Assembly: GCA_028404615.1 (NCBI GenBank)
Contig: JAOOBT010000004.1
Location: forward strand, 1-15,000
Direction of reading: 5' to 3'
DNA length: 15,000 nucleotides
Source of the DNA: Candidatus Pelagibacter sp.
GTDB lineage: Bacteria; Pseudomonadota; Alphaproteobacteria; Pelagibacterales; Pelagibacteraceae
Shown here: piece by piece, positions 2,727 through 15,000 of the stretch
How positions within the stretch are numbered: position 1 is the first letter of the stretch
Layout of the letters: each line of letters opens with the position of its first letter
The notes under the pieces: model-generated
Told to the model about the DNA's origin: nothing
The model's database searches: none
What the model saw: the letters and a program-made list of their open reading frames with translations, nothing else
Made by a program: the position numbers and the translations under genes

Positions 2727-3428
2727 ATGACAAAAAAAATCAAAAATATTTGTATAATTCCAGCTAGAGGTGGTAGCAAAAGAATACCTGGGAAAAACAT
2801 TAAAAAATTTTGGGGTAAACCATTAATTTTTTATTCGATAAATGTAGCAAAAAAATCAAAATTGTTTGATAAAATTTTTGTTTCTACAGATAGCAAAAAA
2901 ATAAAAAAAATCTCTGAAAAATACGGTGCAAAAGTTCCTTTTTTAAGAGAAAAAAAATATTCTAAAGATGGTGTAGGAACTGAGTTTGTGACAAAAAATT
3001 TTTTACAAAAGATTAATTATAAATCGTATGATTATTGTGTTTGTCTTTATCCAACTTCACCTTTTTTAAAAACTATTGATTTACATTTATCTTTAAAAAA
3101 ACTCAAAAAAAATAACTTTGATAAACTTACTTCTGTTGGGAGATATAACTTTTCACCTATGCGGGCTTTTAAAGAGAAGAACGATAAAATAAGTTTCTTA
3201 AATAAAAAATACAAGAATATTAGATCACAGAAACTACCAAACATTTTTCATGACGCGGGTAACTTTTATATTTATAAAATTAAAAGTTTCATCAAATCCA
3301 AAAAGGCTTTAAAAAGACATACTTATTTTGAGTTAAACTCAAATAGAGTTTTAGATATTAATACCCCGGAAGATTTTAAAATGGCTGAGATTCAGTATGA
3401 AGTTTTAAAGAAAAAAAAATTAATTTGA
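2727..3428 (+). CDS. pseF: pseudaminic acid cytidylyltransferase (CMP-Pse synthetase)
   Basis: The 233-residue product couples CTP to a nonulosonic acid, giving the CMP-activated donor for surface glycosylation; it should act in the cytoplasm. The family signature IPARGGSKRIPGKN is at residues 11-24, the STD strand at 53-55, YPTSPF at 108-113, and the PseF-like HDAGNFYIY at 175-183. PseF proteins are about 230 residues and carry a DAGxFY motif, while sialic acid NeuA enzymes usually differ there, so I favour PseF. Its partner pseI lies 2.1 kb downstream on the same strand. One oddity: the metal-binding strand near the C-terminus reads LDINTPEDF (209-217), so the second Asp of the usual DxD is Asn212. 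The 3' end overlaps the convergent 63-residue gene by 9 bases. Legionaminic or another nonulosonic acid remains a possible substrate. Confidence 0.88.
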   Translation: MTKKIKNICIIPARGGSKRIPGKNIKKFWGKPLIFYSINVAKKSKLFDKIFVSTDSKKIKKISEKYGAKVPFLREKKYSKDGVGTEFVTKNFLQKINYKSYDYCVCLYPTSPFLKTIDLHLSLKKLKKNNFDKLTSVGRYNFSPMRAFKEKNDKISFLNKKYKNIRSQKLPNIFHDAGNFYIYKIKSFIKSKKALKRHTYFELNSNRVLDINTPEDFKMAEIQYEVLKKKKLI

Positions 3429-3611
3429 CAGCTTCTTTACAAGCTTGCTAATCCTGTTATCTTCCAAGTAAATTTCACTCATTATTTTTGCAGCTTTTTT
3501 TGGAGAATGTTTAAACGCCAGCCTCAAAACATTCATCCAGTTTTTGTTGTTTTTTTTTCTTATGTTTTCTATTTGATTAATAACTGAAAGATATTTTTTT
3601 TTTCTTTTCAT
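3420..3611 (-). CDS. small conserved-looking helical protein
   Basis: This is a 63-residue, highly basic, predominantly helical protein (INQIENIRKKNNKNWMNVLRLAF at 11-33, then HSPKKAAKIMSEIYLEDNRISKL). The centre has an NNxNWMxxLRLAF pattern followed by a Ser-Pro-capped helix. I have an impression of similar short proteins beside nonulosonic acid synthesis genes in other low-GC bacteria, but cannot name a family. It has no signal peptide, membrane segment or cysteine. It starts with ATG 17 bases after the glycosyltransferase stop, so it is probably co-transcribed with that gene. Its last 9 bases overlap the convergent pseF end. Coding is supported by the patterned alternation of hydrophobic and charged residues and by the tight spacing. 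Function is unknown; a small accessory subunit of a neighbouring enzyme is one guess. Confidence 0.65.
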   Translation of the reverse strand: MKRKKKYLSVINQIENIRKKNNKNWMNVLRLAFKHSPKKAAKIMSEIYLEDNRISKLVKKLSN

Positions 3612-3628
3612 AATCTCATATTGCCTAA

Positions 3629-5440
3629 TTAGTTTATCAGGTTCAACCTTAATTTTAGATATTTGTAAAAAGTATCAATTTCAAATTTTGAGTAAAAATG
3701 ATTTCTCATTTTATTTAATTCAAAGTTAAACTTGTTAAAGTTTTTATCCAGCAACTTAATCTTAAGATCTAATTCATTTATGTTGTTCGCAACCATTTTT
3801 TTGTTATATTTTATATATGGGGTGATGAATTTAAAATTTTCATAAATTATAGCTGGTTTATTTAAACATAAAAAATCATCAATCATAGATGTATATTTTC
3901 CAATTATAAAATCAAACTTCTTAGAAATTTGATAGTTATCAAGAATTAAATTTCTATCAAAAATAACAATATTTTTTGTCTTGTTTATCTCTTTCACAAT
4001 AGGTTTGAAAAAATCATATTTCATCCAGTCAAAATTTTTACTTTTAATTGTAAACTTTATATTTGAATTTAGTTTTGCAATTTCAATTATATCGAGCAAA
4101 AATTTGGAATTAACGTTCCAATTTATAATGGGGTGTACACCTGCTTCATACCAATCTTTTATTGCGTAATCGACTACTAAACAATTTTTTTTGTAGTTTT
4201 GTTTTATTTTTTTATATTCATTATTTTTTTGTCTTAAAATTAATGGACCAACTTTTGAAGTATTTGTTTTTTTATAAATTTGATTTTTCAAATCTTTCTT
4301 AGTTTTATTTCCGATGATAAGATATTCATCTATTAAAAACTGGAATTTTGCGGCAGGCCACTGCAATCTAGTTTGAATACAAATAGTTTTTTTTTTTTCA
4401 AGTTTAAAGGCAATTAAAATTTCCTTATAGAAATTTAATTCTTGAAAAAAAATTATATTTCTAAGTTTTTTAAACTTCCTAATTTTAATTTTGTTAATAT
4501 ATATTTTTAATGCCCCTATAATTAGAATATTTGAAATTCTTAAATTACTTTTCCATAATAAAAATAGATAAGTTAGGAGTAAATTAATCACTAGACCTAA
4601 AGAAAGAAAATCAGAGCTAATCCTTTTCCAAATGAAAAAATTAGGAGCGGTTTTTTTATAAAAATTTTTGCTTTCTTTACTTATCTTTATGTTTTCCTCC
4701 AATTCACAAAATAAAAAGTCTTTTTTGTTTAGTTGTCCATTTTTCTCTTTAAGAAAAATCCAGGTTAAATCAGAAAAATATGTTTTAGATTTTTTATACA
4801 AGCCTCCCACAGGGAAAACTATTGTTTTAAGTTCCATGATCAAATTTTTTTTATTTTTTCTTATTTTATTCTTTATTCTAAAAATTCTAAGTAATTTAAA
4901 AAAAATAAAAAATAAAATTTTGAAAAAAATAGGAATAAGATTTAAAACTTCTAGAAATCCTGGTTTTAAATTAAAAAAACCTTTTTCATCTTTTATGCAA
5001 ATTTTTGAAAAAAAATTATTCTCGAACCATAGATAAATCTTTTCATCTTTTATTCTTTTTTTCTTGATAAGAGATATGAAAAGTAAATATCTATAAGTGT
5101 TTTTTTTCAAATAATCATAAAGATAAATTTGTAAATAACGTTTTTCGCCAAAAAATAGAATCAATTTTTCGTTCCATATTTTATTAGCTATTAATAAAGA
5201 AAACTTTTTTGCGATTTTTATTGATTTTTCAATGGTATTAAATCTTCTGTCTGCTATATAATTTTTTTCTTCATTGAAACTTATCCAAAAAATACTGAAA
5301 CGTCCTAAAAACGCTACTATTTTTTTTTTTCTCAATACTTTAGTTAATTCAAAATAGCTTACATCATTACCAAGTAACCTAAGCAGAAGTACTAATAAAA
5401 TATTTGAAAATGTGATTTTTTCAAAAAAAAATTTATACAT
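3629..5440 (-). CDS. putative membrane-associated surface-glycan glycosyltransferase (GT-B, TagF-like C-terminus)
   Basis: The roughly 603-residue protein has a long N-terminal region without a recognised domain, a strongly hydrophobic segment near residues 164-190 (PIFFKILFFIFFKLLRIF), another near 278-298, and a C-terminal half resembling a GT-B fold. The key motif is FDFIIGKYTSMIDDFLCLNKPAIIY near residues 510-534. It parallels the ADxxITDYSSxxxDFxxxxKPxxxY stretch of CDP-glycerol glycerophosphotransferase-like (TagB/TagF) and related capsule transferases. It may transfer a CMP-activated sugar or a phospho-alditol to a membrane acceptor. Standing between pseF and pseI, it is a candidate nonulosonic acid transferase, though this is inference. 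An in-frame TTG at 5441-5443 directly precedes the ATG at 5438-5440; I chose the ATG. The gene contains A12 and A11 homopolymer tracts on its coding strand. The 63-residue gene follows after 17 bases. Confidence 0.6.
   Translation of the reverse strand: MYKFFFEKITFSNILLVLLLRLLGNDVSYFELTKVLRKKKIVAFLGRFSIFWISFNEEKNYIADRRFNTIEKSIKIAKKFSLLIANKIWNEKLILFFGEKRYLQIYLYDYLKKNTYRYLLFISLIKKKRIKDEKIYLWFENNFFSKICIKDEKGFFNLKPGFLEVLNLIPIFFKILFFIFFKLLRIFRIKNKIRKNKKNLIMELKTIVFPVGGLYKKSKTYFSDLTWIFLKEKNGQLNKKDFLFCELEENIKISKESKNFYKKTAPNFFIWKRISSDFLSLGLVINLLLTYLFLLWKSNLRISNILIIGALKIYINKIKIRKFKKLRNIIFFQELNFYKEILIAFKLEKKKTICIQTRLQWPAAKFQFLIDEYLIIGNKTKKDLKNQIYKKTNTSKVGPLILRQKNNEYKKIKQNYKKNCLVVDYAIKDWYEAGVHPIINWNVNSKFLLDIIEIAKLNSNIKFTIKSKNFDWMKYDFFKPIVKEINKTKNIVIFDRNLILDNYQISKKFDFIIGKYTSMIDDFLCLNKPAIIYENFKFITPYIKYNKKMVANNINELDLKIKLLDKNFNKFNFELNKMRNHFYSKFEIDTFYKYLKLRLNLIN
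4387..4398 (-). repeat. A12 homopolymer tract inside the glycosyltransferase gene
   Basis: Twelve consecutive T on the plus strand (A12 in the coding strand) encode the lysines of the EKKKT stretch near residue 350. The tract could slip during replication or transcription and switch the frame. Lysine AAA codons are common here, so chance is an adequate explanation unless length variation is observed. Confidence 0.6.
5320..5330 (-). repeat. A11 homopolymer tract inside the glycosyltransferase gene
   Basis: Eleven consecutive T on the plus strand encode the RKKKI segment near residues 38-42. Slippage this early in the gene would abolish nearly the whole protein, the position expected of an on/off switch. 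It is only one base shorter than the second tract in the same gene. Confidence 0.6.
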
Positions 5441-5454
5441 CAATTACCGTAATT

Positions 5455-5477
5455 TTATGTTCAATTATTGAACATAA
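5455..5477. promoter_or_regulatory. palindromic operator-like site ahead of pseI (copy 2)
   Basis: A perfect 10-base inverted repeat, left arm TTATGTTCAA and right arm TTGAACATAA around a TTA spacer, sits in the 88-base divergent gap between the glycosyltransferase and pseI. The central core TGTTCAA-N3-TTGAACA (5458-5474) is identical in arms and spacing to the site ahead of pseF. The centre is about 26 bases from the glycosyltransferase ATG and 63 from the pseI start, so it is placed to affect both directions. It is not a terminator: it is followed by no T-run adjacent to the stem and lies between divergent starts. Confidence 0.68.
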
Positions 5478-5499
5478 CATAAAAATTTTATTTTATAAA
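5468..5499 (+). promoter_or_regulatory. putative pseI promoter
   Basis: TTGAAC at 5468-5473, the right arm of the palindrome, could be the -35. Candidate -10 hexamers follow: TATTTT at 5489-5494 (15-base spacing) and TATAAA at 5494-5499 (20-base spacing). Neither spacing is ideal. As at pseF, the palindrome would overlap the -35. No clear Shine-Dalgarno sequence precedes the ATG at 5529. Confidence 0.3.
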
Positions 5500-5528
5500 T
5501 AAAAAAACTGATAGTTTTATTAAAATAA

Positions 5529-6569
5529 ATGTGCAATACCTTTAAAATGAAAAAATTTTTCGACGCAAAAAAACCAGTATTCATTGCTGAAATTTCCTGT
5601 AATCATAATGGTAAGTTAGCTAATGCCAAAAAGCTAATAGCGTTAGCTAAAAAATGTGGTGCTGATCTTGTTAAGTTGCAGACTTATACCCCTGACACAA
5701 TGACTATAGATGTAAAAAATAAGTTTTTTAGAATAAAAGATGGATTATGGAAGGGTAAAAATTTATGGTCGTTGTATTCTAAATCTCAAACACCTTTTAG
5801 TTGGCAGAAAACTTTATTTAACTACGCTAAGAAAGTTGGCATCACCTGTTTTAGCACACCATTCGATGAGAGTGCTGTAGACTTACTTGAAAGTTTAAAA
5901 TGCCCTTTTTATAAAATATCATCTTTTGAAATGACTGATGTAAGATTAATTAAAAAGATAGCTCAAACAAAAAAGCCGCTAATAATTTCAACTGGAACAT
6001 CATCTTTAAAAGAAATTTCTTTAGCTTATAGAACAGCACAAAAAAATGGAGCAAAAAAAATTGTATTACTTTATTGTGTAAGCAATTACCCAGCTAAAAT
6101 TGATGATTTCAATTTAAATAATATAAAAATTCTACAAAAAAAGTTTAAATGTAAAGTTGGTTTATCTGATCATTCTACTGACTCATCTGTGATGATTGGA
6201 GCCATCGCGCTAGGTGCAGTTTTTGTGGAAAAACATATCGCTTTACCTGGTCAAAAAACTGGTTTTGATATCCAGTTTTCCTTAAGAGGGAATGAGATTA
6301 AAAACTTTATAAACTTAATGCATAATACACATCAATTAATTTCAAACAAAAAATTTGTACGAAATGAGTCCGAAAAAGCAAATAAGTTTTTTAGAAAATC
6401 AATTTTTGTTACTAAAAATATAAAAAAAAATGAAAAATTTAATGAACATAACATAAGAATAATCAGACCAGGAATAGGATTAGAACCTATCTACTTTGAT
6501 AAAATACTAGGTAAAAAAAGTAAAAAAAATTTAAAAAGAGGAACGCCGTTTAAGAGAGATTTTTATTAG
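5529..6569 (+). CDS. pseI: pseudaminic acid synthase
   Basis: PseI condenses the 2,4-diacetamido-altropyranose precursor with phosphoenolpyruvate to form pseudaminic acid. The 346-residue protein has the NeuB-family TIM barrel: FIAEISCNHNG (18-28), ADLVKLQTYTPDTMT (45-59), STPFDESAVDLLE (109-121), ISTGTSSL (153-160), and the metal-binding GLSDHS (His215) and EKHI (His236). A SAF (antifreeze-like) domain follows from about residue 288 to the end. The stretch GLWKGKNLWSLYSKSQTPFSW is typical of PseI rather than NeuB or LegI. The annotated ATG gives MCNTFKMKKFF...; an alternative ATG six codons in (5547-5549) would fit the family's short N-terminus equally well. The 3' end overlaps the convergent DUF4910-formyltransferase gene by 20 bases. 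PseB, PseC, PseH and PseG, which make the precursor, are not in this window. Confidence 0.9.
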   Translation: MCNTFKMKKFFDAKKPVFIAEISCNHNGKLANAKKLIALAKKCGADLVKLQTYTPDTMTIDVKNKFFRIKDGLWKGKNLWSLYSKSQTPFSWQKTLFNYAKKVGITCFSTPFDESAVDLLESLKCPFYKISSFEMTDVRLIKKIAQTKKPLIISTGTSSLKEISLAYRTAQKNGAKKIVLLYCVSNYPAKIDDFNLNNIKILQKKFKCKVGLSDHSTDSSVMIGAIALGAVFVEKHIALPGQKTGFDIQFSLRGNEIKNFINLMHNTHQLISNKKFVRNESEKANKFFRKSIFVTKNIKKNEKFNEHNIRIIRPGIGLEPIYFDKILGKKSKKNLKRGTPFKRDFY

Positions 6570-8478
6570 ACTTTTTTTTTGCTAAACTAATTTTCATGTT
6601 CCAATTTTTTAAGTATTTTGGTAAATCTTTTTTTTTGTGATAAGAACCTTTTCTATTTTTGCGGGAAGTCTTGTAATTTTTATTTACCAATTCGTTAAAT
6701 TTTTTCTTAAATAATTTTTCTAATTCAAATCTTAAAATTTCATAAGTTTTAGAAAATGTTTCATGTTTTTTTTTATTAATATCAAATAATATTTTTTTTT
6801 GAAAAATAATTGGTCCACTATCAATTTTAGAATTTATTTCATGAATAGTCACGCCAGATGGAGTTCCGTCAATGAAAGACCAAAAATTTGGGTTGGCACC
6901 TCTATTAAATGGTAAATAAGAAATATGTAAATTAATTATTGGATCTTTGATTCTTTTTAAAATTTTTTTATTTATTATATGTCTATATCCATAAGAAACG
7001 ATTAAATCGTAGGAATTAATATTTTCTAAATCATATTCGGTAATTTTGTCTTTTTTATTAAATACATGCCAACCTTTTTTTTTAAAAAAACTTATTAAAG
7101 ATGTTTCTTTCTCTGAATAACCAAGAAATAAACAATTTTTTTTCTTTTTTTTTGTAAAATTAATTAATTTGTTTTTATCTAATAAGTTAAATATTTTTTT
7201 AGTCTTTTTTAGATTCAAATTAATGTATGCGGAAATATTTTTTAGATCATTTGTTCCATCAGCGTACTGCAAAAAATTCAGTAAATTCTTAGGCTGAATA
7301 TAATTATTTTCTTTCCGACTTAATTTAGGATAAAGATCTCTTTTTCCCAAATTTGGCTCACAGAATATTTTGGTTATTATTTTTTTATTTGAAACTTGTC
7401 TAGGTAATTTTAAATTTATTTTTTGAGTCAATAACAAATTTTCAATTGCTTTTTTTGAAACCTTGAAACCTCCTAGAAGACCTTTTTCTGATATAATTTT
7501 AAAATTATCTAATGAAGTATGATACTCTTTATATGTGTCATATTTAGATCTCATAATTGAACCAATACCAAGATCTATAAAGGGAGAATTAAATTGTCTT
7601 TCATCCGAGCCTCTTTCTAAGAAACTATAAGTTTTAAATTTATAACCAAGATCATTTAATGCTTTAAGAGCGCATCTATCACTTAATGAATTTTGATACT
7701 TTGAAAACAAATATGAATAATTTTTTTCATCTCCTATACAGGTTAAAACATAACCTCCAATTACATTTTTTTTTAATTTTGTAAAATTTTTATTTATGTA
7801 AGCAATTGAGCCTATTGTTTCGGGAATGAGGAGAAACCTGATGCTTTTGTTCAATTTTTTTTTCTTGGAATAATAATTTGCTAAAGCAGTAAGCACTAAA
7901 GGACCGGATAACTCATTGTTCGCCATAGATGGATGACATATATAAGATGAAATTAAAACTTCGCTTTTACTTTCACCTTTTAAGTATAATTCTCCATAAG
8001 TTAGCGAACCAGATTTATTAAAACTAGAGTTAATATTTATAAAAAATTTATCGTTTTTTTTATATTTTTTTTTTAATTTTTTGTATTGTTCAAAAGAGAC
8101 ACAAAATCCCCAATACTTTTTGTAGTATGATGTGATGTATGGAATCGCCTTTTTTTGTTTTTTTGAGTAATGAAGCCTATCAAATAATTCGTTTCTGGAA
8201 ATTAATTTCTTTGTAGGTTGTGAATATGAAACTAAATGAAGGTTATTGTTTTTAATATCTATGATTTTATTTCCAAATTTATCTTGTACATATGCCTCCT
8301 TGATATTCCATTCAGGTGGAACCTTCCAATCATAAACTTTTGAACCAGAGTTTATTTTTTTAATTTTTAAATTTTTAATTTCTTTTTTTAATATTTTTAA
8401 TGTTTTCTCAACACCTTTGCCTGTAATACTTCTAAATATCGGAAATAACTTTTTACCGATTTTAAAATATTTTTTCAT
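6550..8478 (-). CDS. DUF4910/M28-like aminopeptidase-type domain fused to a formyltransferase domain
   Basis: Two domains are visible in 642 residues. Residues 1 to about 350 match the DUF4910/DUF2172 family: VPPEWNIKEAYV (54-64), PYITSYYKKYWGFC (113-126), CHPSMANNELSGP (181-193), IPETIGSIAY (218-227), GSDERQFNSP (290-299) and YKEYHTS (316-322). Putative zinc ligands are His182, Glu220 and His320. A wHTH-like linker follows at roughly 390-440. Residues 448 to about 600 are a formyltransferase domain with DLIVSYGYRHII, NLHISYLPFNRGANP (catalytic Asn516 and His518) and IDSGPIIF (Asp553), so the Asn-His-Asp set of folate-dependent formyltransferases is intact. It likely N-formylates an amino sugar using N10-formyl-tetrahydrofolate. 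The DUF4910 part is peptidase-like, but in glycan clusters its role is unsettled; the related C. jejuni Cj1295 is linked to decoration of pseudaminic acid. It is the last gene of the long operon, 3 bases after the methyltransferase. Confidence 0.82.
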   Translation of the reverse strand: MKKYFKIGKKLFPIFRSITGKGVEKTLKILKKEIKNLKIKKINSGSKVYDWKVPPEWNIKEAYVQDKFGNKIIDIKNNNLHLVSYSQPTKKLISRNELFDRLHYSKKQKKAIPYITSYYKKYWGFCVSFEQYKKLKKKYKKNDKFFININSSFNKSGSLTYGELYLKGESKSEVLISSYICHPSMANNELSGPLVLTALANYYSKKKKLNKSIRFLLIPETIGSIAYINKNFTKLKKNVIGGYVLTCIGDEKNYSYLFSKYQNSLSDRCALKALNDLGYKFKTYSFLERGSDERQFNSPFIDLGIGSIMRSKYDTYKEYHTSLDNFKIISEKGLLGGFKVSKKAIENLLLTQKINLKLPRQVSNKKIITKIFCEPNLGKRDLYPKLSRKENNYIQPKNLLNFLQYADGTNDLKNISAYINLNLKKTKKIFNLLDKNKLINFTKKKKKNCLFLGYSEKETSLISFFKKKGWHVFNKKDKITEYDLENINSYDLIVSYGYRHIINKKILKRIKDPIINLHISYLPFNRGANPNFWSFIDGTPSGVTIHEINSKIDSGPIIFQKKILFDINKKKHETFSKTYEILRFELEKLFKKKFNELVNKNYKTSRKNRKGSYHKKKDLPKYLKNWNMKISLAKKKSNKNLS

Positions 8479-8481
8479 TTT

Positions 8482-10014
8482 TCAATTATTTTTTTTGCTC
8501 AATTTTATATAGTAACTATAATCTTTATTTTTAACTCTCGATCTAAAATCTTTTTTGATATAATAACCTAAAATTATTCTTACGAATTTGGTATTAATTG
8601 GGTACGCTTCAATTGTTTTTGGTTTAAGATTATTGTTGGTCATACAATAAAATTGCATCTTTGCCTTGCAAAGATTTTGCCTTGATAAAGATTGTATAAA
8701 ATCAAAGTGAACCCCCTCGTTAAGATCTAAATTATTTTTCATCTCATTCAAACTTTGTTTATGTACCTCAAGATTAATAATTCCAAATCTTCCAATAAAG
8801 TTTGACCATTTTTTGTAGTAAATATTCAATGTTTGATTTATTAACTTTGAAGTGTACAACTCTCCTTTTTTTCCAATACCAATTACATCTTTATCATTTG
8901 TATTAATAAATTTGTCTTTTGAAAAAAATTTGCTATGTTCTTTTAGTATTTCTCTCTCGTGATCTACAAATGATCTTATTTGTAAAATTTGATTTTTAAA
9001 AATTTTTTTTGAATTAAGTAATCTAAAAATTTTTTTAGGATTGTCAATTGATTCTTTAATCAAAATTGTTTTTGATTTCGGTAAATTATTTTTAGCAGCA
9101 TTAATTGAAATTTTATTCAAATCTACACCTATTAATTTTATTTCTTTGAAAATTTTTTCTTTCATAATTTTTTTTAAATGAGAATATATTTTTTTTAAAA
9201 GTAAACCGTCTCCGCATCCTATATCCATTATATATTTAGGTGTTTCTTTTTCTTTAAATATTTTTTCTATAATTTTAATTATTCTATTAAAATATTTTTC
9301 ATGTTGCCTTGAACTAGACTCTATATTTAAACTTCTATCAATATGAGTTTCGGTATTGTCTTTGATTTTAAAGATTTTTTCTGGGTTACTAGTAAGTAAG
9401 TTTTCAAAATTTAAAAGCATATTTCTATATGATGCAGCTACACCTATAATTTTGATGTTATTAATTAGATATGATCCTGGTGATGAATAAACAAAATTTT
9501 TTCCATCAAATTTAACCAATTTTTTTTTATTCAGTAAACTAGTTATCATAATAAATTTTTTATCATTTAAAATATTCAATTTTCTATTAAGGTTTAAAGA
9601 AAAAAATAACGGTATTAAAAAACATCCATCGATAATCTGGTTATCTATCCCTTTTATACTCCATCCATGAATTAATTTTTTTGAATAATGCTGAAAAATT
9701 TTTTGATTTTTTTTATCAAAAATAATTCTTTTAAAATCTTGGTTATAAAAAAAAGTGAATTTTTTGTTAATAATCGTTACTAAAGGGTGTTTTTTTTTAT
9801 AATGGTAGACATTTGCTCTTCTAGTAACAATTGAAAAAATACTTAATAAGTTAAGCCCTGCTATAAGATATCCAGAATTTAGCTTAGTTAATTTTAAAAG
9901 CTGTTTAATAGATTTAGGTTTTTTTAATAGATTAAATATTTTTTGATTTTTGAATGCTAAAATTGTAGGGACTAAAACAAAACCGTGAGCGAGTTTAATT
10001 ATGTAGCTGTACAA
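8482..10014 (-). CDS. PKS-type SAM-dependent methyltransferase
   Basis: The 510-residue protein has an N-terminal helical region like the dimerisation domain of O-methyltransferases (residues 1-70, with IFNLLKKPKSIKQLLKL) and a class I methyltransferase core. Motif I is IMDIGCGDG (262-270), and LIGVDLN (294-300) places the acidic ribose ligand at Asp298. LQIRSFVDHERE (344-355) and a C-terminal HFDFIQSLSRQ resemble methyltransferases found in polyketide pathways, which work on carrier-bound acyl groups. This fits the ACP gene ending only 5 bases upstream. The start is unusual: TTG at 10012-10014 follows an in-frame TAA at 10024-10026 with only AAA and ATA codons between, so no ATG is available near the N-terminus. 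No strong ribosome site is visible; coupling to the ACP stop may deliver ribosomes. C- versus O-methylation cannot be told from sequence by eye. Confidence 0.78.
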   Translation of the reverse strand: MYSYIIKLAHGFVLVPTILAFKNQKIFNLLKKPKSIKQLLKLTKLNSGYLIAGLNLLSIFSIVTRRANVYHYKKKHPLVTIINKKFTFFYNQDFKRIIFDKKNQKIFQHYSKKLIHGWSIKGIDNQIIDGCFLIPLFFSLNLNRKLNILNDKKFIMITSLLNKKKLVKFDGKNFVYSSPGSYLINNIKIIGVAASYRNMLLNFENLLTSNPEKIFKIKDNTETHIDRSLNIESSSRQHEKYFNRIIKIIEKIFKEKETPKYIMDIGCGDGLLLKKIYSHLKKIMKEKIFKEIKLIGVDLNKISINAAKNNLPKSKTILIKESIDNPKKIFRLLNSKKIFKNQILQIRSFVDHEREILKEHSKFFSKDKFINTNDKDVIGIGKKGELYTSKLINQTLNIYYKKWSNFIGRFGIINLEVHKQSLNEMKNNLDLNEGVHFDFIQSLSRQNLCKAKMQFYCMTNNNLKPKTIEAYPINTKFVRIILGYYIKKDFRSRVKNKDYSYYIKLSKKNN

Positions 10015-10019
10015 TTTTA

Positions 10020-10268
10020 TTATTTAATTTTTAATTTTTTTTGAACAAACGTTACCAATTGTTTAAAATTGTTAAAGGCATCAATTCCTTCTTCAGCTGA
10101 AATCTTAATTTTAAATTTTTTTTCTAAAGCTGATACAAGTTGTACATGTGTGAGGGAGTCCCAATTCTCAACGTTTTCAGCGCTTGATTTATCATTTATT
10201 TTCTTAATTGGAAAAGACATGACTTTTGAAAAAACTTTTTTACAGTCTTCATTTATTTTTATCTTCAT
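10020..10268 (-). CDS. acyl carrier protein
   Basis: This 82-residue protein is a free-standing acyl carrier protein. The phosphopantetheine attachment site is WDSLTHVQLV (36-45) with Ser38, preceded by an Asn/Glu-rich turn and followed by the second helix ALEKKFKIKIS. The length is normal for the family. It is more basic at the N-terminus than fatty-acid AcpP, as is common for dedicated carriers in secondary or glycan pathways. Methyltransferase genes flank it on both sides (2 and 5 bases away) and luxE- and luxC-like genes lie upstream in the same operon. That context suggests it carries a small acyl intermediate while it is methylated and transferred, rather than serving bulk lipid synthesis. 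A 4'-phosphopantetheinyl transferase would have to be supplied from elsewhere. Confidence 0.9.
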   Translation of the reverse strand: MKIKINEDCKKVFSKVMSFPIKKINDKSSAENVENWDSLTHVQLVSALEKKFKIKISAEEGIDAFNNFKQLVTFVQKKLKIK

Positions 10269-10270
10269 AA

Positions 10271-11227
10271 TTAATTCCTTTTTAGGATAGCGCAGTAATT
10301 TATAACTTTACTATTTTTTTCGGCAAAGTCAATTGACATACCTTTTAGTGTAATTGGAGACTCTTTGATAATTTTCCAAGAACATTCTTTAATAAATTTT
10401 CTAATTTGATTAACTTTTGTAAAAAGTAAAATGTGATCTTCTGCTGGGCCGTTAGCGGGAGTTGAAAAATAGCAAAGACCATTTTTTTTCATTTTTTTAC
10501 TTAAAGTTTTCATCACTTTTTTTCCTTTTGCTAAATGCTCAATTATTTCCCCAAGAAGTAATACATCCAATGAATTGTCAGCAATAGGCACTTTTTTTTG
10601 AATATCCACTTTACTTATTTTAATATTTTTAGCATCTGCACCAGAAGCAATTGACATTTTTTTTGCAAAATTTAGGCACATATTACTCACATCAAACATT
10701 AATGAATTTGTTTTCGAATATTTTTTAAAAATTTCAGCAGTAAACAAACCGTGGCCCATACCAACTTCCGCTATTAAAGAATCTTTTTTTACTTTCTTTA
10801 CTAAATTTTTTTGATAAAATTGAAACACTTTTAAATGATTTTCCCAAAATAATTGTGATACACCCAATCCTATAGCGTAATTAAACATGTAATTAGGCCT
10901 ATTGTAAACTTGCTCAAAAACTTTTTTATAATTTTTATGTCTGTAATTTTTTTTTTTTTCAAAATATAATTCCTCTTTTTTCAAAAGATCCGTATACCAA
11001 AGATAAATATTAGCAATTTTTTCTAAATTAATCTTTTTATCAATTGACCTAGAAACCTTTAAAAGTCTATTTGTTATACTTTCGGCTTCTTGAAAATGTT
11101 TTCTATCTTTGCTCAAAATAGTTTTATAAATAGATTTTTTCTGGAAAATATTTTTTTTAGATATAAAACTTACCAAGGAGCTATAATTTTTATATTTTGA
11201 AATTTTTTTTTTTATGTTAATTTTCAT
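10271..11227 (-). CDS. class I SAM-dependent methyltransferase
   Basis: The 318-residue protein has a helical N-terminal half without a recognised domain, followed by a class I methyltransferase core: AEVGMGHGLF (153-162) as motif I, SLMFDVS (175-181) with the acidic loop residue Asp179, VDIQKKVPIADNSLDVLLLGEIIEHL (207-232) covering motifs II-III, and NGLCYFSTPANGP. The long N-terminal extension (about 145 residues) is larger than in simple UbiE-type enzymes and may be a substrate or carrier-binding cap. Its ATG overlaps the luxE stop by 11 bases (ATGAAAATTAA), and the ACP gene starts 2 bases after its stop. An A13 tract lies in the coding strand near codons 90-94. Substrate unknown; a carrier-bound hydroxyacyl group or a sugar hydroxyl are both possible. 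Confidence 0.8.
   Translation of the reverse strand: MKINIKKKISKYKNYSSLVSFISKKNIFQKKSIYKTILSKDRKHFQEAESITNRLLKVSRSIDKKINLEKIANIYLWYTDLLKKEELYFEKKKNYRHKNYKKVFEQVYNRPNYMFNYAIGLGVSQLFWENHLKVFQFYQKNLVKKVKKDSLIAEVGMGHGLFTAEIFKKYSKTNSLMFDVSNMCLNFAKKMSIASGADAKNIKISKVDIQKKVPIADNSLDVLLLGEIIEHLAKGKKVMKTLSKKMKKNGLCYFSTPANGPAEDHILLFTKVNQIRKFIKECSWKIIKESPITLKGMSIDFAEKNSKVINYCAILKRN
10947..10959 (-). repeat. A13 homopolymer tract inside a methyltransferase gene
   Basis: Thirteen consecutive T on the plus strand, the longest mononucleotide run I found in the window. It encodes the FEKKKNY stretch at about residues 89-95 of the methyltransferase. A gain or loss of one base would remove the catalytic domain. 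It is a candidate slippage (phase-variation or transcriptional realignment) site. Confidence 0.65.
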
Positions 11228-12356
11228 AAAATTGTTTCGCCATTATATCTCCGCAACCTCTTATTTCTGTTTCATGCTTATATCTGCCAATAACTTTAAA
11301 GTAAATACCGTTACGACCACACTTACAATCATCTATACCTTCTATTCTTCCAACATCTTCTGTTAAAAAACTATTGCCTGGGTAAGATAATTGTATTGGA
11401 GTAATAAATTGAAGGAATCCAATTTTCTTAATTTTTTCAATAACCTTAAAGTTTTTAAAATCCCTTACGATCAAAGTAGAATAGTTAGTGCAATGTCTAA
11501 AACCTTTTTCACATGTAGGATATAATAATCCCCCTTGCTCTGAAAAGCCATAAATATCAATAATATTATCAGTTTTGATTTTTAAGAATTTTTGAATTAA
11601 AGAATTGAGTTTTTTTCTAGATACTTTTTCTTTTTCAAGTTTTTTCCAGCCCCCAGCATGAACTAATAACGCATTGTTTAAATTATAATTTTTTTTAAGT
11701 CTCATAATTTCCCTCAAGAAATATTTGTAAATCACGTAGGTAAAACCAAATATCATTACTTTTTCATGCTTTTTGATTGATTTAAAAAAATTATTTAAAG
11801 CCTTTTTATCTAATTCTAATTGACCTTTTCGTAATTTCAAACAAGTTGAGTATGACTTTGACACAAACAAAAAAGATTTTAGCATTGAAGATCTAGCGCT
11901 TAAAACTGATGTTTTTTTTAAATTTTCTTTTGTGTCCAAAAATAAAATTTTATATTTTTCATTTCCAACTCTATCTAAAAACATTTTTTGGAGGGACAAA
12001 GACCAACGATAATTATTATCTTTATCCAAAACTATTTTGGAATAATTGTCTGATGTCGTCGCGCTTGAGTTAATTTGTCTAAAAATTTTAGACTTTGGAA
12101 TAGAAGAGATCAAATTTTCTTTAAAAACTGTAGAGGTTAAATATGGAATTTCAGAAAAGTTATTAAGTTTTTGAGGTTTAAATTTAAAATATTTACAAAT
12201 ATTTTTGTATTCTTTGCAATTTTCATACTGATACAGAAGAACAGTTTTAAGTAATTTAATTAATTTCTTTCTTTTAAGATTTTCTCTTTCATTATAAAGA
12301 GGTTTTAAAATTATATTCTTTAAACTATTGTTTAAATATTTTTTATTAACTTGCAT
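11217..12356 (-). CDS. LuxE-like acyl-protein synthetase
   Basis: LuxE-family enzymes adenylate a carboxylic acid with ATP, move the acyl group to their own cysteine, and hand it to a partner such as LuxC. The 379 residues fit the family length. Recognisable parts are the ATP-site-like QINSSATTSDNYSKIVLD (94-111), LLVHAGGWKKL (230-240), DIYGFSEQGG (267-276), LTEDVGRIEG (331-340) and VIGRYK (355-360). Cys368 in EIRGCGD, eleven residues from the C-terminus, sits where Photobacterium LuxE carries its acylated cysteine near the C-terminal end. A CKCG pair at 344-347 is another cysteine feature. With an ACP three genes down the operon and a luxC-like gene upstream but no luciferase, it probably feeds a biosynthetic acid into a carrier-bound pathway. 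Its start overlaps the upstream gene by 11 bases and its stop overlaps the methyltransferase by 11 bases. Confidence 0.82.
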   Translation of the reverse strand: MQVNKKYLNNSLKNIILKPLYNERENLKRKKLIKLLKTVLLYQYENCKEYKNICKYFKFKPQKLNNFSEIPYLTSTVFKENLISSIPKSKIFRQINSSATTSDNYSKIVLDKDNNYRWSLSLQKMFLDRVGNEKYKILFLDTKENLKKTSVLSARSSMLKSFLFVSKSYSTCLKLRKGQLELDKKALNNFFKSIKKHEKVMIFGFTYVIYKYFLREIMRLKKNYNLNNALLVHAGGWKKLEKEKVSRKKLNSLIQKFLKIKTDNIIDIYGFSEQGGLLYPTCEKGFRHCTNYSTLIVRDFKNFKVIEKIKKIGFLQFITPIQLSYPGNSFLTEDVGRIEGIDDCKCGRNGIYFKVIGRYKHETEIRGCGDIMAKQFYEN

Positions 12357-13053
12357 AAAAACAAAATGTTGGTTTAGGTTTAATATTTATTTTATAAAAA
12401 TCAACCGACCTAATGTCAAATTCTGATTTAGCTGTCTTAAAAACTTTTTTATTAAAAAATTTTATTTTTTTAATTTTTCTTAATTTTTTTTTATCAACTA
12501 GTAAATTTGTTAAGTAACACCATCTTATCTTTGTATAGTGAGTTTTATCGCTTTTAATAATGTCTCTATGGCATTCCTCTATGGCTCTTATTAAATCGAT
12601 TATACTAAAAATTTTTTTAATTTTGCAATCAACAAATTTTTTATTTTTTTTAATGTTTACTATATGTCTTCCATAAATATCTTTTTTTTCCCTAAATCTA
12701 TTATCTATCTTTTTAGAATTTTTATACAGGTCACAGACTAAATTTTTTGAATTATGACGTATTTTTAAAATTGCAATTTTATTTTTATTCTCCTTGCATT
12801 TTTTTTTTGAAAAATATGCAATCGCCTTTGTATTGAAATTTATTTTTGAATTTATTTTAGCCTCAACGATTTTAAAATTATTTTTTTTTATGCTAGGTAA
12901 TAGTTTTTCACAACATTTAAGCATCCCATCGACAACAACAACACCTTGGATATAATCTCTCTCTTCCAGATATTTATAAGATAATTCAGCCGTGACTTTT
13001 TCTTTACTAAATTTCATTTTTGAAATTGATAAATTTGTTGAATTATTTTGCAT
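12346..13053 (-). CDS. unrecognised protein, possibly a hotdog-fold acyl-thioester enzyme
   Basis: I do not recognise this roughly 235-residue protein with certainty. The first half (SYKYLEERDYIQGVVVVDGMLKCCEKLLPSIKKNN, then a beta-rich stretch KIVEAKINSKINFNTKAIAYF) resembles the layout of hotdog dehydratases or thioesterases: a D-x-QG turn, a long central helix, then antiparallel strands. The second half has a helical LIRAIEECHRDII followed by strands ending TFCFYAS, so a double hotdog is conceivable. His and Asp/Glu residues are present, but no catalytic motif is certain. It lies between the AAC(3)-like and luxE genes, which fits acyl-thioester chemistry. An earlier in-frame ATG at 13087-13089 adds 12 residues and a 47-base overlap. 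I prefer the ATG at 13051-13053 because it gives an 11-base ATGN5TAA overlap like the next two junctions in the operon. Confidence 0.7.
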   Translation of the reverse strand: MQNNSTNLSISKMKFSKEKVTAELSYKYLEERDYIQGVVVVDGMLKCCEKLLPSIKKNNFKIVEAKINSKINFNTKAIAYFSKKKCKENKNKIAILKIRHNSKNLVCDLYKNSKKIDNRFREKKDIYGRHIVNIKKNKKFVDCKIKKIFSIIDLIRAIEECHRDIIKSDKTHYTKIRWCYLTNLLVDKKKLRKIKKIKFFNKKVFKTAKSEFDIRSVDFYKINIKPKPTFCFYAS

Positions 13054-13837
13054 ATGGTCTTTTCTTTGGAATTTTATCAAGCCATCCATAGATATTGTCT
13101 CTTAGATATAATTTTGATTTATTTACAAAGTCATTACAGTCATAGAGATATATTTTTCCCTCGCCTAATTTAGTAGAGTTTATTTTTAATTTTTTTTTTC
13201 TTAAATAATTAAAAAGTTTAATATTTAAATTTCTTTTAATATCTGCATTTCTGTAACATACAAACATATAAAATAATTCTTTTTTTGTTATTTTATTTCT
13301 TTTGATTGGATGGTAAAATTCTTTTGTATATCTATAAGGTACGCCCATCAATAATTCTACATGATGAATATATGAACAGGTAAGCCTCGGTGGGAGTCCT
13401 ACAGAAAGATACTTCGTATTAATTTTCAACATTCTATCCTTTGGTGTTTCAGCTCCAAAACTATTTTTTGAGTTATCAAGACAGATATATTTAGAGTGTG
13501 CACCAACACTACTATGAGAGTTAAATGGGTGCATACTTCTTATTGAGTTTTTTTGTTTTCTTACAAATTCAGAAAAAGCTCCTCTTTCTGATTTTGTATT
13601 TTTTATATCGAATGGAATATTAGTATTGCACAAAGACTCCGACGCTGTAGAAACAATAATTGTGCCTTTTTTCAAATCAATAATACTGGATAAGGCTTCA
13701 AAATGTGATTGAGCTATTTTTTGATTATCTGTAAATTTACCAAGATATCTTAGATCGCCTTTTACTAAAATGTTGTCTCCTTTTTTAATACCTACCTTTC
13801 TAAAAGCAATTAATAATTCTTCAAAATTATAGCTCAT
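13043..13837 (-). CDS. AAC(3)-family N-acyltransferase, probably acting on an amino sugar
   Basis: The 264-residue protein has the AAC(3) (Antibiotic_NAT) layout: GIKKGDNILVKGDLRYLG (16-33), KKGTIIVST (56-64), PFDIKNTKSERGAFSE (75-90), RSMHPFNSHSSVGAHS (100-115) and a strand followed by YIHHVE (156-161), where the family's conserved histidine and acidic residue lie. Family members transfer an acetyl or other acyl group from a thioester to an amine. Relatives such as WbdR acylate amino sugars in O-antigen synthesis, so inside a glycan operon this should not be read as antibiotic resistance. Candidate acceptors are amino groups of pseudaminic acid or its precursors, and the donor could be the operon's acyl-ACP. 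Its ATG overlaps the luxC-like stop as ATGA. The His-x-x-Glu pattern at the expected place is intact, so the enzyme is probably active. Confidence 0.8.
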   Translation of the reverse strand: MSYNFEELLIAFRKVGIKKGDNILVKGDLRYLGKFTDNQKIAQSHFEALSSIIDLKKGTIIVSTASESLCNTNIPFDIKNTKSERGAFSEFVRKQKNSIRSMHPFNSHSSVGAHSKYICLDNSKNSFGAETPKDRMLKINTKYLSVGLPPRLTCSYIHHVELLMGVPYRYTKEFYHPIKRNKITKKELFYMFVCYRNADIKRNLNIKLFNYLRKKKLKINSTKLGEGKIYLYDCNDFVNKSKLYLRDNIYGWLDKIPKKRPYAK

Positions 13838-15000
13838 TTTTTTGCTCTTGGTAGGGTTGAATATTTAGTCAGTTTAAGTGGAATATTTAATCCATCCCAA
13901 GTGCTATCAAAATTTGTCATTTGTCCTACTACTTTTACCCGTGCCAATCCAATTTTTTGAAGTTCATTTATATATGGCTCTAAATTTTTCGTAATTTTTG
14001 TTACTCCTAGAGTTTGGATATTTTTTGGAAAGTTAGTTTTAATATAAATTAATTTTGGTAATTTTCTAATAAATATAGTTCCATTCTCAATAACAGGACC
14101 AATAGTACTCTTATCATCGTATAAAACTGTTGAATTTAAATCATCATGATCTGAAAAAACTTTGTGTCTTAAAGAGTACTTGAGTCTTAAGTTCAAAATT
14201 CTTATTTTCTTTTGATTTGTAATTGGGGAAAATTGATATTTTTTATAAGTCTCTTTTAAATTTCTTGATAATTTTTTTGAAAAAGAAAATATCTGTTTTT
14301 CAGTAGCACCCTGAAGAAATATTGTGTGAGGAGAAGCACATGCTTTTTGATCAAATATAAGGATATCTCTTGTAATTTTTTTTATGAAAAGATTAGTATT
14401 TTTTTTTAAAGAATCTTTATCAACGATAATAAAAGAAATCTTATTTGAGAAAATTAGATTATCACAATCTAATTTAGTTGGTAAATTTTTTAAAGTTTCA
14501 CAAACCTCATCACCTCCCCAAATAACCTTAGTATCTGCAATTTTTGATAGTTTTTCTGAAATTTTGACATCTTTTTTATCATATTTTAAAATCAAAATAT
14601 TATTTACTATCTTCTGAGCTACGTTATCTATTTTTTTGAATTCTTTAAGTAGGTCTACGAGAACATTTTTAGAAAATGATGGTAATCGTACAATATTTTT
14701 ATTTTTTGTAATTATGCCCAATATTAAAGATAAAAAACCTAATGTAGGCACATTTCCGGCTATCCAGTGCACCGCCAGACCTTTTGGTAAAATTTTAAAT
14801 TTTAACCTATTTTTGACACTAAACTTATTTAATGACTCCAATGAACCAAAAGAGTCATAAAGAATTTTTTCCAAATTGCTTCTTGAACACCAATCAGCGA
14901 TAAATGGAAGGCCATACCCTCTATATCTATTGTTTAGAAAATTTTTACTAGAAAGAATTTTCTTAGAGAATTTATTTAAAGATTTTAAAATCTTTTCGAT
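13834..15000 (-). CDS. LuxC-like acyl-CoA/acyl-ACP reductase, C-terminal part (runs off right edge)
   Basis: LuxC-family enzymes reduce an acyl thioester to an aldehyde with NADPH. Visible motifs are the ALDH-like VHWIAGNVPTLGFLSL, NKNIVRLPSFSKNV and IWGGDEV segments, and FDQKACASPHTIF. The cysteine in the last (codon 14338-14340) is the expected acyl-accepting residue; LuxC relatives have a similar Q-x-C-[ST]-SP pattern. A TTG at 14872-14874 could be mistaken for the start, but the frame stays open to position 15000 and the extra 42 codons read like protein (RGYGLPFIADWCSRSN). The usual family length is near 480, so about 90 N-terminal residues should lie beyond the edge. It is the most upstream gene seen in the operon. 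Its promoter is not in this window. Whether the thioester is on CoA, on the ACP or on LuxE is unknown. Confidence 0.82.
   Translation of the reverse strand: MEKILKSLNKFSKKILSSKNFLNNRYRGYGLPFIADWCSRSNLEKILYDSFGSLESLNKFSVKNRLKFKILPKGLAVHWIAGNVPTLGFLSLILGIITKNKNIVRLPSFSKNVLVDLLKEFKKIDNVAQKIVNNILILKYDKKDVKISEKLSKIADTKVIWGGDEVCETLKNLPTKLDCDNLIFSNKISFIIVDKDSLKKNTNLFIKKITRDILIFDQKACASPHTIFLQGATEKQIFSFSKKLSRNLKETYKKYQFSPITNQKKIRILNLRLKYSLRHKVFSDHDDLNSTVLYDDKSTIGPVIENGTIFIRKLPKLIYIKTNFPKNIQTLGVTKITKNLEPYINELQKIGLARVKVVGQMTNFDSTWDGLNIPLKLTKYSTLPRAKK

Follow-up and report, generated by a model that had tools for sequence, protein, structure and literature searches.

What would an operon of acyl-handling enzymes do beside genes for pseudaminic acid? 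The question is posed by the first 15,000 nucleotides (nt) of contig JAOOBT010000004.1 from Candidatus Pelagibacter sp. (assembly GCA_028404615.1), a stretch called the window here, which has a G+C content of ~24% and carries pseF and pseI together with an operon encoding an acyl carrier protein (ACP), relatives of LuxE and LuxC, two methyltransferases, an N-acyltransferase and a fusion protein. We consider it probable that these genes form part of the route to a pseudaminic acid (Pse), or related nonulosonic acid, that bears a custom N-acyl group built on the ACP as well as an N-formyl group. The argument draws on gene identities, operon layout, the predicted fold of one orphan protein, domain fusions and the recurrence of the module in or near nonulosonate loci of other genomes, and from these we infer the reactions, the acyl structure and the positions. 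The genes concerned, with lengths in amino acids (aa), are as follows.

2727..3428, plus strand: pseF, CMP-pseudaminic acid synthetase (TIGR03584, 242.9 bits, cut-off 205.7)
5529..6569, plus strand: pseI, pseudaminic acid synthase with NeuB and SAF domains (TIGR03586, 422.8 bits, cut-off 340.25; PF03102, PF08666)
6550..8478, minus strand: DUF2172/DUF4910 (M28-peptidase-like, Cj1295 type), HTH_47 and PseJ-like formyltransferase in one 642-aa protein (Pfam; PDB)
8482..10014, minus strand: stand-alone AprA-MT1-type methyltransferase (MT1), 510 aa (PF23526, PF23589, PF23525; PDB 6b39)
10020..10268, minus strand: ACP with a DSL serine motif (PF00550, a marginal 21.0 bits, cut-off 20.8)
10271..11227, minus strand: class I S-adenosylmethionine methyltransferase (MT) with a helical N-terminal part of its own (Pfam; AlphaFold2, pLDDT 93.8)
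11217..12356, minus strand: LuxE-like acyl-AMP ligase/acyl-protein synthetase (PF04443, 1.7e-53; PDB LuxE 7xc6_E, E 4e-10)
12346..13089, minus strand: predicted double-hotdog acyl-thioester protein of a new sequence family, 247 aa (predicted structure)
13043..13837, minus strand: AAC(3)-family N-acyltransferase (PF02522, 9e-22)
13834..15000, minus strand: LuxC-like acyl reductase, 5' end beyond the window (PF05893, 4e-56; PDB LuxC 7xc6_A, E 3e-16)

PseF and PseI both score above the curated equivalog cut-offs of NCBIfam, which places them in the pseudaminic acid families. The eight open reading frames (ORFs) of the minus strand follow in the order LuxC, AAC(3), orphan (the predicted hotdog), LuxE, MT, ACP, second MT (MT1) and DUF4910, with their 3' end against pseI. 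Adjacent ORFs overlap by 4–47 nt or are parted by gaps of 2–5 nt, and because these distances are so small we read the eight as one operon. A promoter and terminator scan of the window gave no signal above shuffles, and tRNA and Rfam scans of it returned no matches. Pfam and NCBIfam scans of the window ORFs found every gene that the sequence-only reading of this DNA had named, each where that reading had put it; its list was correct but incomplete, overlooking the formyltransferase fusion, the AprA-MT1 type of the 510-aa enzyme and the double-hotdog orphan.

Much of this operon recurs elsewhere. Scanning genome contigs with an alignment of 21 LuxE sequences yielded 80 LuxE loci from many phyla (a single LuxE query gave none), and LuxC accompanies LuxE in 79 of them, the remaining LuxE lying at a contig end. 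Hotdog and MT matches are both confined to five of the loci (L001–L005), those with the closest LuxE, and all five also match ACP and LuxC. A tree of 91 LuxE sequences contains a 100/100 branch, one side of which (15 rows) comprises the window, L001–L005 and others, five being of unknown context. In four of the five, the contig also has a strong NeuB match no more than ~24 kb away. In L003, from an Olavius symbiont, hotdog-MT-ACP-LuxE-LuxC lies inside one operon, after PseB, PseC, PseF and PseG (all over cut-off) and before an LpxD-like hexapeptide acyltransferase and a NeuB that scores under both the NeuB and PseI cut-offs. In L002 the module comes after PseC and PseG, both over cut-off, and a cytidylyltransferase, and before an LpxD-like gene and NeuB. 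L001, from Desulfospira joergensenii, runs AAC(3), LuxC, an intervening ORF (L001:7561-8286, which we take to be transposase-like), an alpha/beta hydrolase and then hotdog-LuxE-MT-ACP-MT1 in the window's order, with LegC, NeuB and NeuC over cut-off ~20–24 kb upstream of the module. L004 shows an AAC(3) match, the module and an AAC(3)-DUF4910 fusion; ahead of its hotdog gene by ~13 kb, on the same contig, NeuB is matched at 316.9 bits. LuxE P0011, hotdog P0131 and MT1 P0147 each have 29,433 bases as the length of their longest contig, and from this shared length we take the three to lie together on one further contig.

An N-acyltransferase stands beside the module in all five loci, of AAC(3) type in L001 and L004 and LpxD-like in L002, L003 and L005, and PseH is over cut-off in none of these genomes (best 42 of 93.1 bits). 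The concern that the operon might occur mainly in genomes devoid of nonulosonic acid genes is not borne out by these five, four of which have such genes. An ACP-built acyl on pseudaminic acid, as the sequence-only reading proposed, is thus well supported by the module's place in or near nonulosonate clusters in four genomes, once with pseB, pseC, pseF and pseG, although its details change.

The last gene of the operon links it to the sugar in a second way. Among 385 alphaproteobacterial genomes (the NeuB, DUF4910/formyltransferase and LuxE samples were taken as the same set; their genome labels overlap), NeuB/PseI is present in 134. It is found in 21 of the 23 genomes with a strong DUF4910 (Fisher 1e-8) and in seven of the eight with a PseJ-like formyltransferase (Fisher p 0.003), counting DUF4910 rows of E 1e-60 or better and formyltransferase rows of 1e-20 or better and dropping weaker ones. 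Both halves of the fusion are tied to nonulosonates; LuxE as a class is not specific to them. Residues 5–432 of the 642-aa protein match 3k9t (E 3e-87), and DUF2172, DUF4910, HTH_47 and the pse/NeuB neighbourhood together assign it to the Cj1295 type. Its C-terminal part has PseJ as the nearest PDB sequences (6ci4, E 7e-33 over 472–624), here as one end of a fusion and not as a stand-alone enzyme. The catalytic triad of such formyltransferases is N-H-D, and NLHISYLP and a later Asp of the domain align with PseJ. On these likenesses we propose that the fusion joins an N-deacylase to an N-formyltransferase.

The DUF4910 part retains the HPS, PET and YHTS motifs of 3k9t, with the ND pair reading NN. 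Its HPSMANNE motif is common to four relatives from pse/NeuB loci (L040, L056, L112, L113) and is possibly the mark of a sugar-specific subgroup. 3k9t and the DUF4910 protein of L004 keep the ND pair where the proteins of pse/NeuB loci read HPSMANNE. Fusions of a different composition, AAC(3)-DUF4910 in single ORFs, occur in three loci (L004, L056, L195) and suggest a remove-and-replace acyl swap. In L122, ~2 kb away from a LuxE match, a 663-aa open frame contains a DUF4910 match and may be a further AAC(3)-DUF4910 fusion. A Maritalea plasmid has AAC(3) and FkbH domains in one 829-aa ORF (L113:7898-10384) beside DUF4910 and a NeuB-family gene, Maritalea DUF4910 also keeps company with pseB and NeuB, and an Agrobacterium plasmid brings pseBCFGIH, AAC(3) and DUF4910 together.

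How might these parts work together? A short acyl group would be carried on the dedicated ACP, which also matches several NCBIfam ACP models below cut-off, and MT1 would C-methylate it, most likely as malonyl-ACP. The 510-aa enzyme contains AprA_N, WH_AprA and Methyltransf_36 domains and belongs with AprA-MT1/SxtA; its best PDB sequence is 6b39, AprA Methyltransferase 1 (E 2.6e-58 over 490 residues), and in the alignment several His, Asp, Glu and Gln columns, candidates for metal ligands, are retained, the EVH His being Phe in three relatives. It is shorter than the matched chains (652 and 713 aa), lacking their C-terminal part, and at 510 aa, with no polyketide synthase domain in the operon ORFs scanned, it does not have the features of an AprA/SxtA polyketide synthase loading module, which include a C-terminal GNAT-type domain. 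Malonyl-ACP is a substrate of AprA-MT1-type enzymes, and its C-methylation is what we propose for the homologue here. An MT1 alignment found no match in viral contigs or in six genomes of a small low-GC order, and plasmids gave three records only, the best being a Janthinobacterium type I polyketide synthase. A GNAT domain considered for the end of the Desulfospira MT1 was not upheld, the match stopping at residue 511 of 639 (525 against a second chain).

The other MT and the double-hotdog protein would tailor the acyl. The model of MT has general methyltransferases only as fold neighbours in the PDB. Its family matches 87 of 395 genomes of Desulfospira's phylum group at E 1e-3, five of them strongly (E 1e-18 or better): L001 and L004, plus L194, L195 and L196, the latter three also with an ACP gene. 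L194 has MT, ACP, FkbH and a hexapeptide protein; L196 has MT, ACP, a NeuB piece and a MaoC hotdog. L195:7392-17766, from the Desulfobacterota group, unites MT, ACP, FkbH, AAC(3)-DUF4910, DUF4910, a radical SAM/B12 protein, Maf and flagellins in one stretch that looks like the Campylobacter jejuni di-O-methylglyceroyl set outside Campylobacter. Since ACP accompanies the MT family in all eight loci seen, the substrate of MT is probably ACP-bound. O-methylation by two methyltransferases, as first suggested, gives way for MT1, which is of a C-methyltransferase type; MT does come from a family that adjoins ACP and FkbH. FkbH makes glyceryl-ACP; none is present in the window ORFs, the operon running off the window end, and the di-O-methylglyceric acid that the sequence-only reading had in mind is left unsupported.

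The orphan, a predicted double hotdog, has no Pfam or NCBIfam match; to judge from homologues and an in-frame ATG, its likely start is at 13053. A plain FabZ-like dehydratase was rejected as its identity, the catalytic His and, in some relatives, the Asp being absent, as was restriction of the family to the window's lineage, for it occurs in L001–L005. Plain tblastn with the window's own protein reaches L001 only, and a plasmid scan with the hotdog gave no match.

LuxE forms an acyl-AMP and then an acyl-Cys. Together with LuxC, which would use an acyl-Cys and NADPH, it would activate or reduce the acyl carboxyl, the least certain step of the proposal. Cys368 of LuxE is invariant across the 21 aligned sequences, and the catalytic Cys of LuxC is retained (QKACASPH). 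A role in bioluminescence was discarded, LuxE reaching 57.6 of 550 bits and LuxC 87.5 of 750 bits against the NCBIfam equivalog cut-offs. LuxE of the window's type was seen in none of the 26 genomes with LuxE matches among 397 of a second low-GC order (all 31–40% identity). Elsewhere, in L006–L080, LuxE has other recurring neighbours: a 480-aa family in 66/80, and further families in 32, 26, 32 (376 aa) and 27. These are presumably ligase-like (66/80), FabG-like (32), ketosynthase-like (26), iron-type alcohol dehydrogenases (376 aa, 32) and transketolase-like pairs (27). An archaeal contig, from Nitrosopumilus (L049), has LuxE and LuxC with weak MT and formyltransferase matches nearby.

AAC(3) would take the place of PseH and pass the finished acyl from the ACP to an amine of the sugar; the 4-amine of the PseC product, later N7, is the likeliest acceptor. 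The transfer of an acyl-ACP acyl to a sugar amine is proposed from family membership; aminoglycoside resistance was set aside as its role, the protein scoring 59.2 of 270 bits against the NCBIfam AAC_3 equivalog. Finally, the DUF4910 domain would strip an N-acetyl group, which the working hypothesis published for Cj1295 would place at N5, and the PseJ-like domain fused to it would formylate the freed amine. The predicted product is Pse5Fo7Acyl (formyl, Fo, on N5 and the acyl on N7) or, with positions exchanged, Pse5Acyl7Fo.

The choice between these two placements is the closest one, and the reverse arrangement is nearly as likely as the one we favour. In that arrangement AAC(3) would re-acylate the N5 that DUF4910 frees, and formylation of the 4-amine (N7), replacing the PseH step, would fall to the PseJ-like domain. 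PseJ stands in for PseH, and PseJ is the nearest PDB relative of the formyltransferase; that likeness alone would suggest N7 formylation, in conflict with the favoured position. The AAC(3)-DUF4910 fusions of three loci argue in the same direction, as does the published account of Cj1295, which, in the excerpts available from PMC3068675, is a hypothesis of a swap at C5. Two observations nevertheless lead us to prefer formyl on N5 and acyl on N7: the genomes with the module have no PseH above its cut-off, and the window AAC(3) is of the module type, not close to the DUF4910-fused one. It is 53% identical to the L001 module enzyme and, by tblastn, 43% identical to the module-adjacent copy in L004; against the others compared the figure is only 23–29%, with 22.6% and 25.8% (BLASTP) for the DUF4910-fused ones. 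Moreover, the partner actually fused to DUF4910 in the window is the formyltransferase. On balance Pse5Acyl7Fo falls somewhat short of an even chance.

A broader challenge is that the ACP/Lux module may serve another amino sugar, or a lipid of the same polysaccharide (LuxC would allow an aldehyde-derived group), leaving only the DUF4910-formyltransferase to modify Pse; the module would then neighbour pseF and pseI simply because one glycan island houses both. Several observations weigh against the pathway as a whole, and some lean this way. The operon and the pse genes lie on opposite strands, and pseB, pseC, pseG and pseH are absent from the scanned window ORFs. In L005 no strong NeuB accompanies the module (best 28.4 bits), whose neighbours are a DesI-like aminotransferase and an LpxD-like acyltransferase, and in L001 the nonulosonate genes are of the legionaminate/sialate type and ~20–24 kb away; because of this gene company the module cannot be called specific to pseudaminic acid. 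LuxE overall is weakly tied to NeuB/PseI, which is present in six of the ten LuxE-bearing alphaproteobacterial genomes (Fisher p 0.09), and a pseI- or pseF-like match falls within the flanks of 23 of the 80 LuxE loci. Other points bear on single enzymes. MT1 was found in only one of the 80 LuxE loci. The hotdog protein has no dehydratase His, and its Asp165 is Ser in L002, L003 and L005. The M28-type metal-binding Asp is Asn in the window's DUF4910 subgroup, so the predicted hydrolase activity is not assured. The DUF4910-formyltransferase fusion is rare, seen only in the window among the genomes and plasmids scanned: among the matches listed for the alphaproteobacterial genomes no row spans the two halves, and none of the 125 plasmid records shows it at a coverage of at least 80%. 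Its functional logic would therefore lean on the AAC(3)-DUF4910 parallel. Even so, in L003 and L002 the module is enclosed by pse genes, and the operon's own last gene is the DUF4910-PseJ fusion, both halves of which go with NeuB/PseI; on these grounds we think a separate sugar or lipid unlikely.

Equally improbable is a scheme in which LuxE, forming acyl-AMP and acyl-Cys, merely loads a scavenged free acid on the ACP, with LuxC an acyl-transfer partner or relic, no reduction, and the methyltransferases acting on the sugar; it would explain why no ketosynthase, FabG or AMP-ligase is recognised in the window part of the operon, but a gene that stays with LuxE in 79 of the 80 loci, and whose Cys is conserved in 77 of the 79 relatives aligned (a gap in the other two), is unlike a relic, and both methyltransferases come from families tied to ACP by company or homology.

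Returning to the pathway with an ACP-built acyl and a formyl group on Pse, a fully specified version can be drawn: MT1 would C-methylate malonyl-ACP, LuxE would activate its free carboxylate, LuxC would reduce this to yield a 3-hydroxy acyl, and MT would O-methylate that acyl to give a 3-methoxy-2-methyl- or 3-methoxy-2,2-dimethylpropanoyl amide on N-formyl pseudaminic acid. That exact structure is a long shot. Its calculated oxonium ions are 361.16 or 375.18.

Two further stretches of the window flank the pse genes.

3629..5443, minus strand: 604-aa protein between pseF and pseI, with no Pfam, NCBIfam or PDB match; at a guess, a possible glycosyltransferase
124-2624, adjoining pseF: a HIT-domain-like protein (PF01230, 22.9 bits) and an FAD/NAD(P)-binding protein (PF13454, 22.9 bits)

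LuxE/LuxC/ACP sets are found in glycan loci of many phyla (80 loci); publications treat them as possibly contributing a lipid component, with no product known. In the window and its five relatives the set is compact and has no ketosynthase or ligase genes; it goes with nonulosonate genes in four of the five reference genomes and with an N-acyltransferase in all five, so a search for the product can focus on a single sugar amine. If the proposal is right, a polyketide-starter type of C-methyltransferase has been recruited to surface-sugar decoration, and DUF4910 proteins work with either an N-acyl or an N-formyl transferase as exchangeable partners, making the long-standing deacylase hypothesis for Cj1295 testable in a single fused enzyme.

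As far as we have seen, the hotdog-MT-ACP-LuxE-LuxC module, the AprA-MT1-type enzyme within it and the DUF4910-PseJ fusion are new, while ACP/LuxE/LuxC with pse genes has been published. In the open-licence literature searched, no paper was found that joins LuxE/LuxC or ACP with DUF4910, nor one that names PseJ with pseudaminic acid and formyltransferase. The Lux pair, which the sequence-only reading regarded as a difference from known loci, proves not to be peculiar: the accessible portions of PMC7874193 and PMC4875605 report it for flagellin-glycan islands of Aeromonas and of enterobacteria, respectively. Aeromonas Group II flagellar glycosylation islands combine pse genes with ACP, LuxE and LuxC. 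They are flagella-linked and also have a 3-oxoacyl-ACP reductase (FabG) and an AMP-dependent synthetase, whereas MT1, hotdog and the DUF4910-formyltransferase are not described in the excerpted text of PMC7874193; conversely, FabG, the AMP-synthetase and Fgi-1 were not found among the window ORFs. For A. piscicola AH-3, a member of this group with pse, ACP, LuxE and LuxC in its island, the same excerpts give a Pse derivative of 376.14 Da and, in addition, a 102 Da group of unknown nature. By mass arithmetic on these partial data, the derivative is +60.01 over Pse5Ac7Ac, near C2H4O2 (60.02), as if a C4H6O3 acyl (102.03) replaced an acetyl. The 102 Da terminal group of that glycan has the nominal mass of the same acyl formula. 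The AH-3 masses reported there agree with an acyl made by the ACP/LuxE/LuxC genes, without showing it. In enterobacterial islands, ACP, LuxE and LuxC are joined by fatty acid CoA ligases and FabG, and PMC4875605, as excerpted, describes the set as possibly contributing a liposugar component.

C. jejuni offers another parallel. In the parts of PMC3068675 at hand, Cj1295 is proposed to cleave the C5 acetamido group, a methylglyceroyl group taking its place, and its loss abolishes the di-O-methylglyceroyl form; the likeness in strain NCTC 11168, whose flagellar pseudaminic acid carries 2,3-di-O-methylglyceroyl, extends to a DUF2172/DUF4910 protein with pse genes, an adjoining N-acetyltransferase gene (Cj1296/7) and an acyl exchanged on a Pse amine. 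Across 16,130 genomes cj1295 correlates with pse genes (PMC13130089, as excerpted), and the locus also holds an fkbH gene, cj1302 (PMC7099621, likewise in part). A distant relative of the window's MT family stands beside FkbH and ACP in L195. Compared with C. jejuni, the window has LuxE, LuxC, hotdog and the AprA-type enzyme instead of FkbH, its DUF4910 is fused to a formyltransferase, and no flagellin genes were seen in it. The luxCDE fatty acid reductase (PDB 7xc6) shares the Cys residues of LuxE and LuxC, yet the window proteins lie far below its equivalog cut-offs and have no LuxA/B, and the hotdog occupies the place of LuxD by analogy only. PseJ (6ci2, 6ci4) is a homologous formyltransferase domain in a pse locus, fused in the window behind DUF4910/HTH_47. 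Lastly, the AprA MT1 and SxtA methyltransferase loading modules share homology over ~490 residues and the same three AprA domains with an enzyme that, in the window, is a separate 510-aa protein of a sugar operon.

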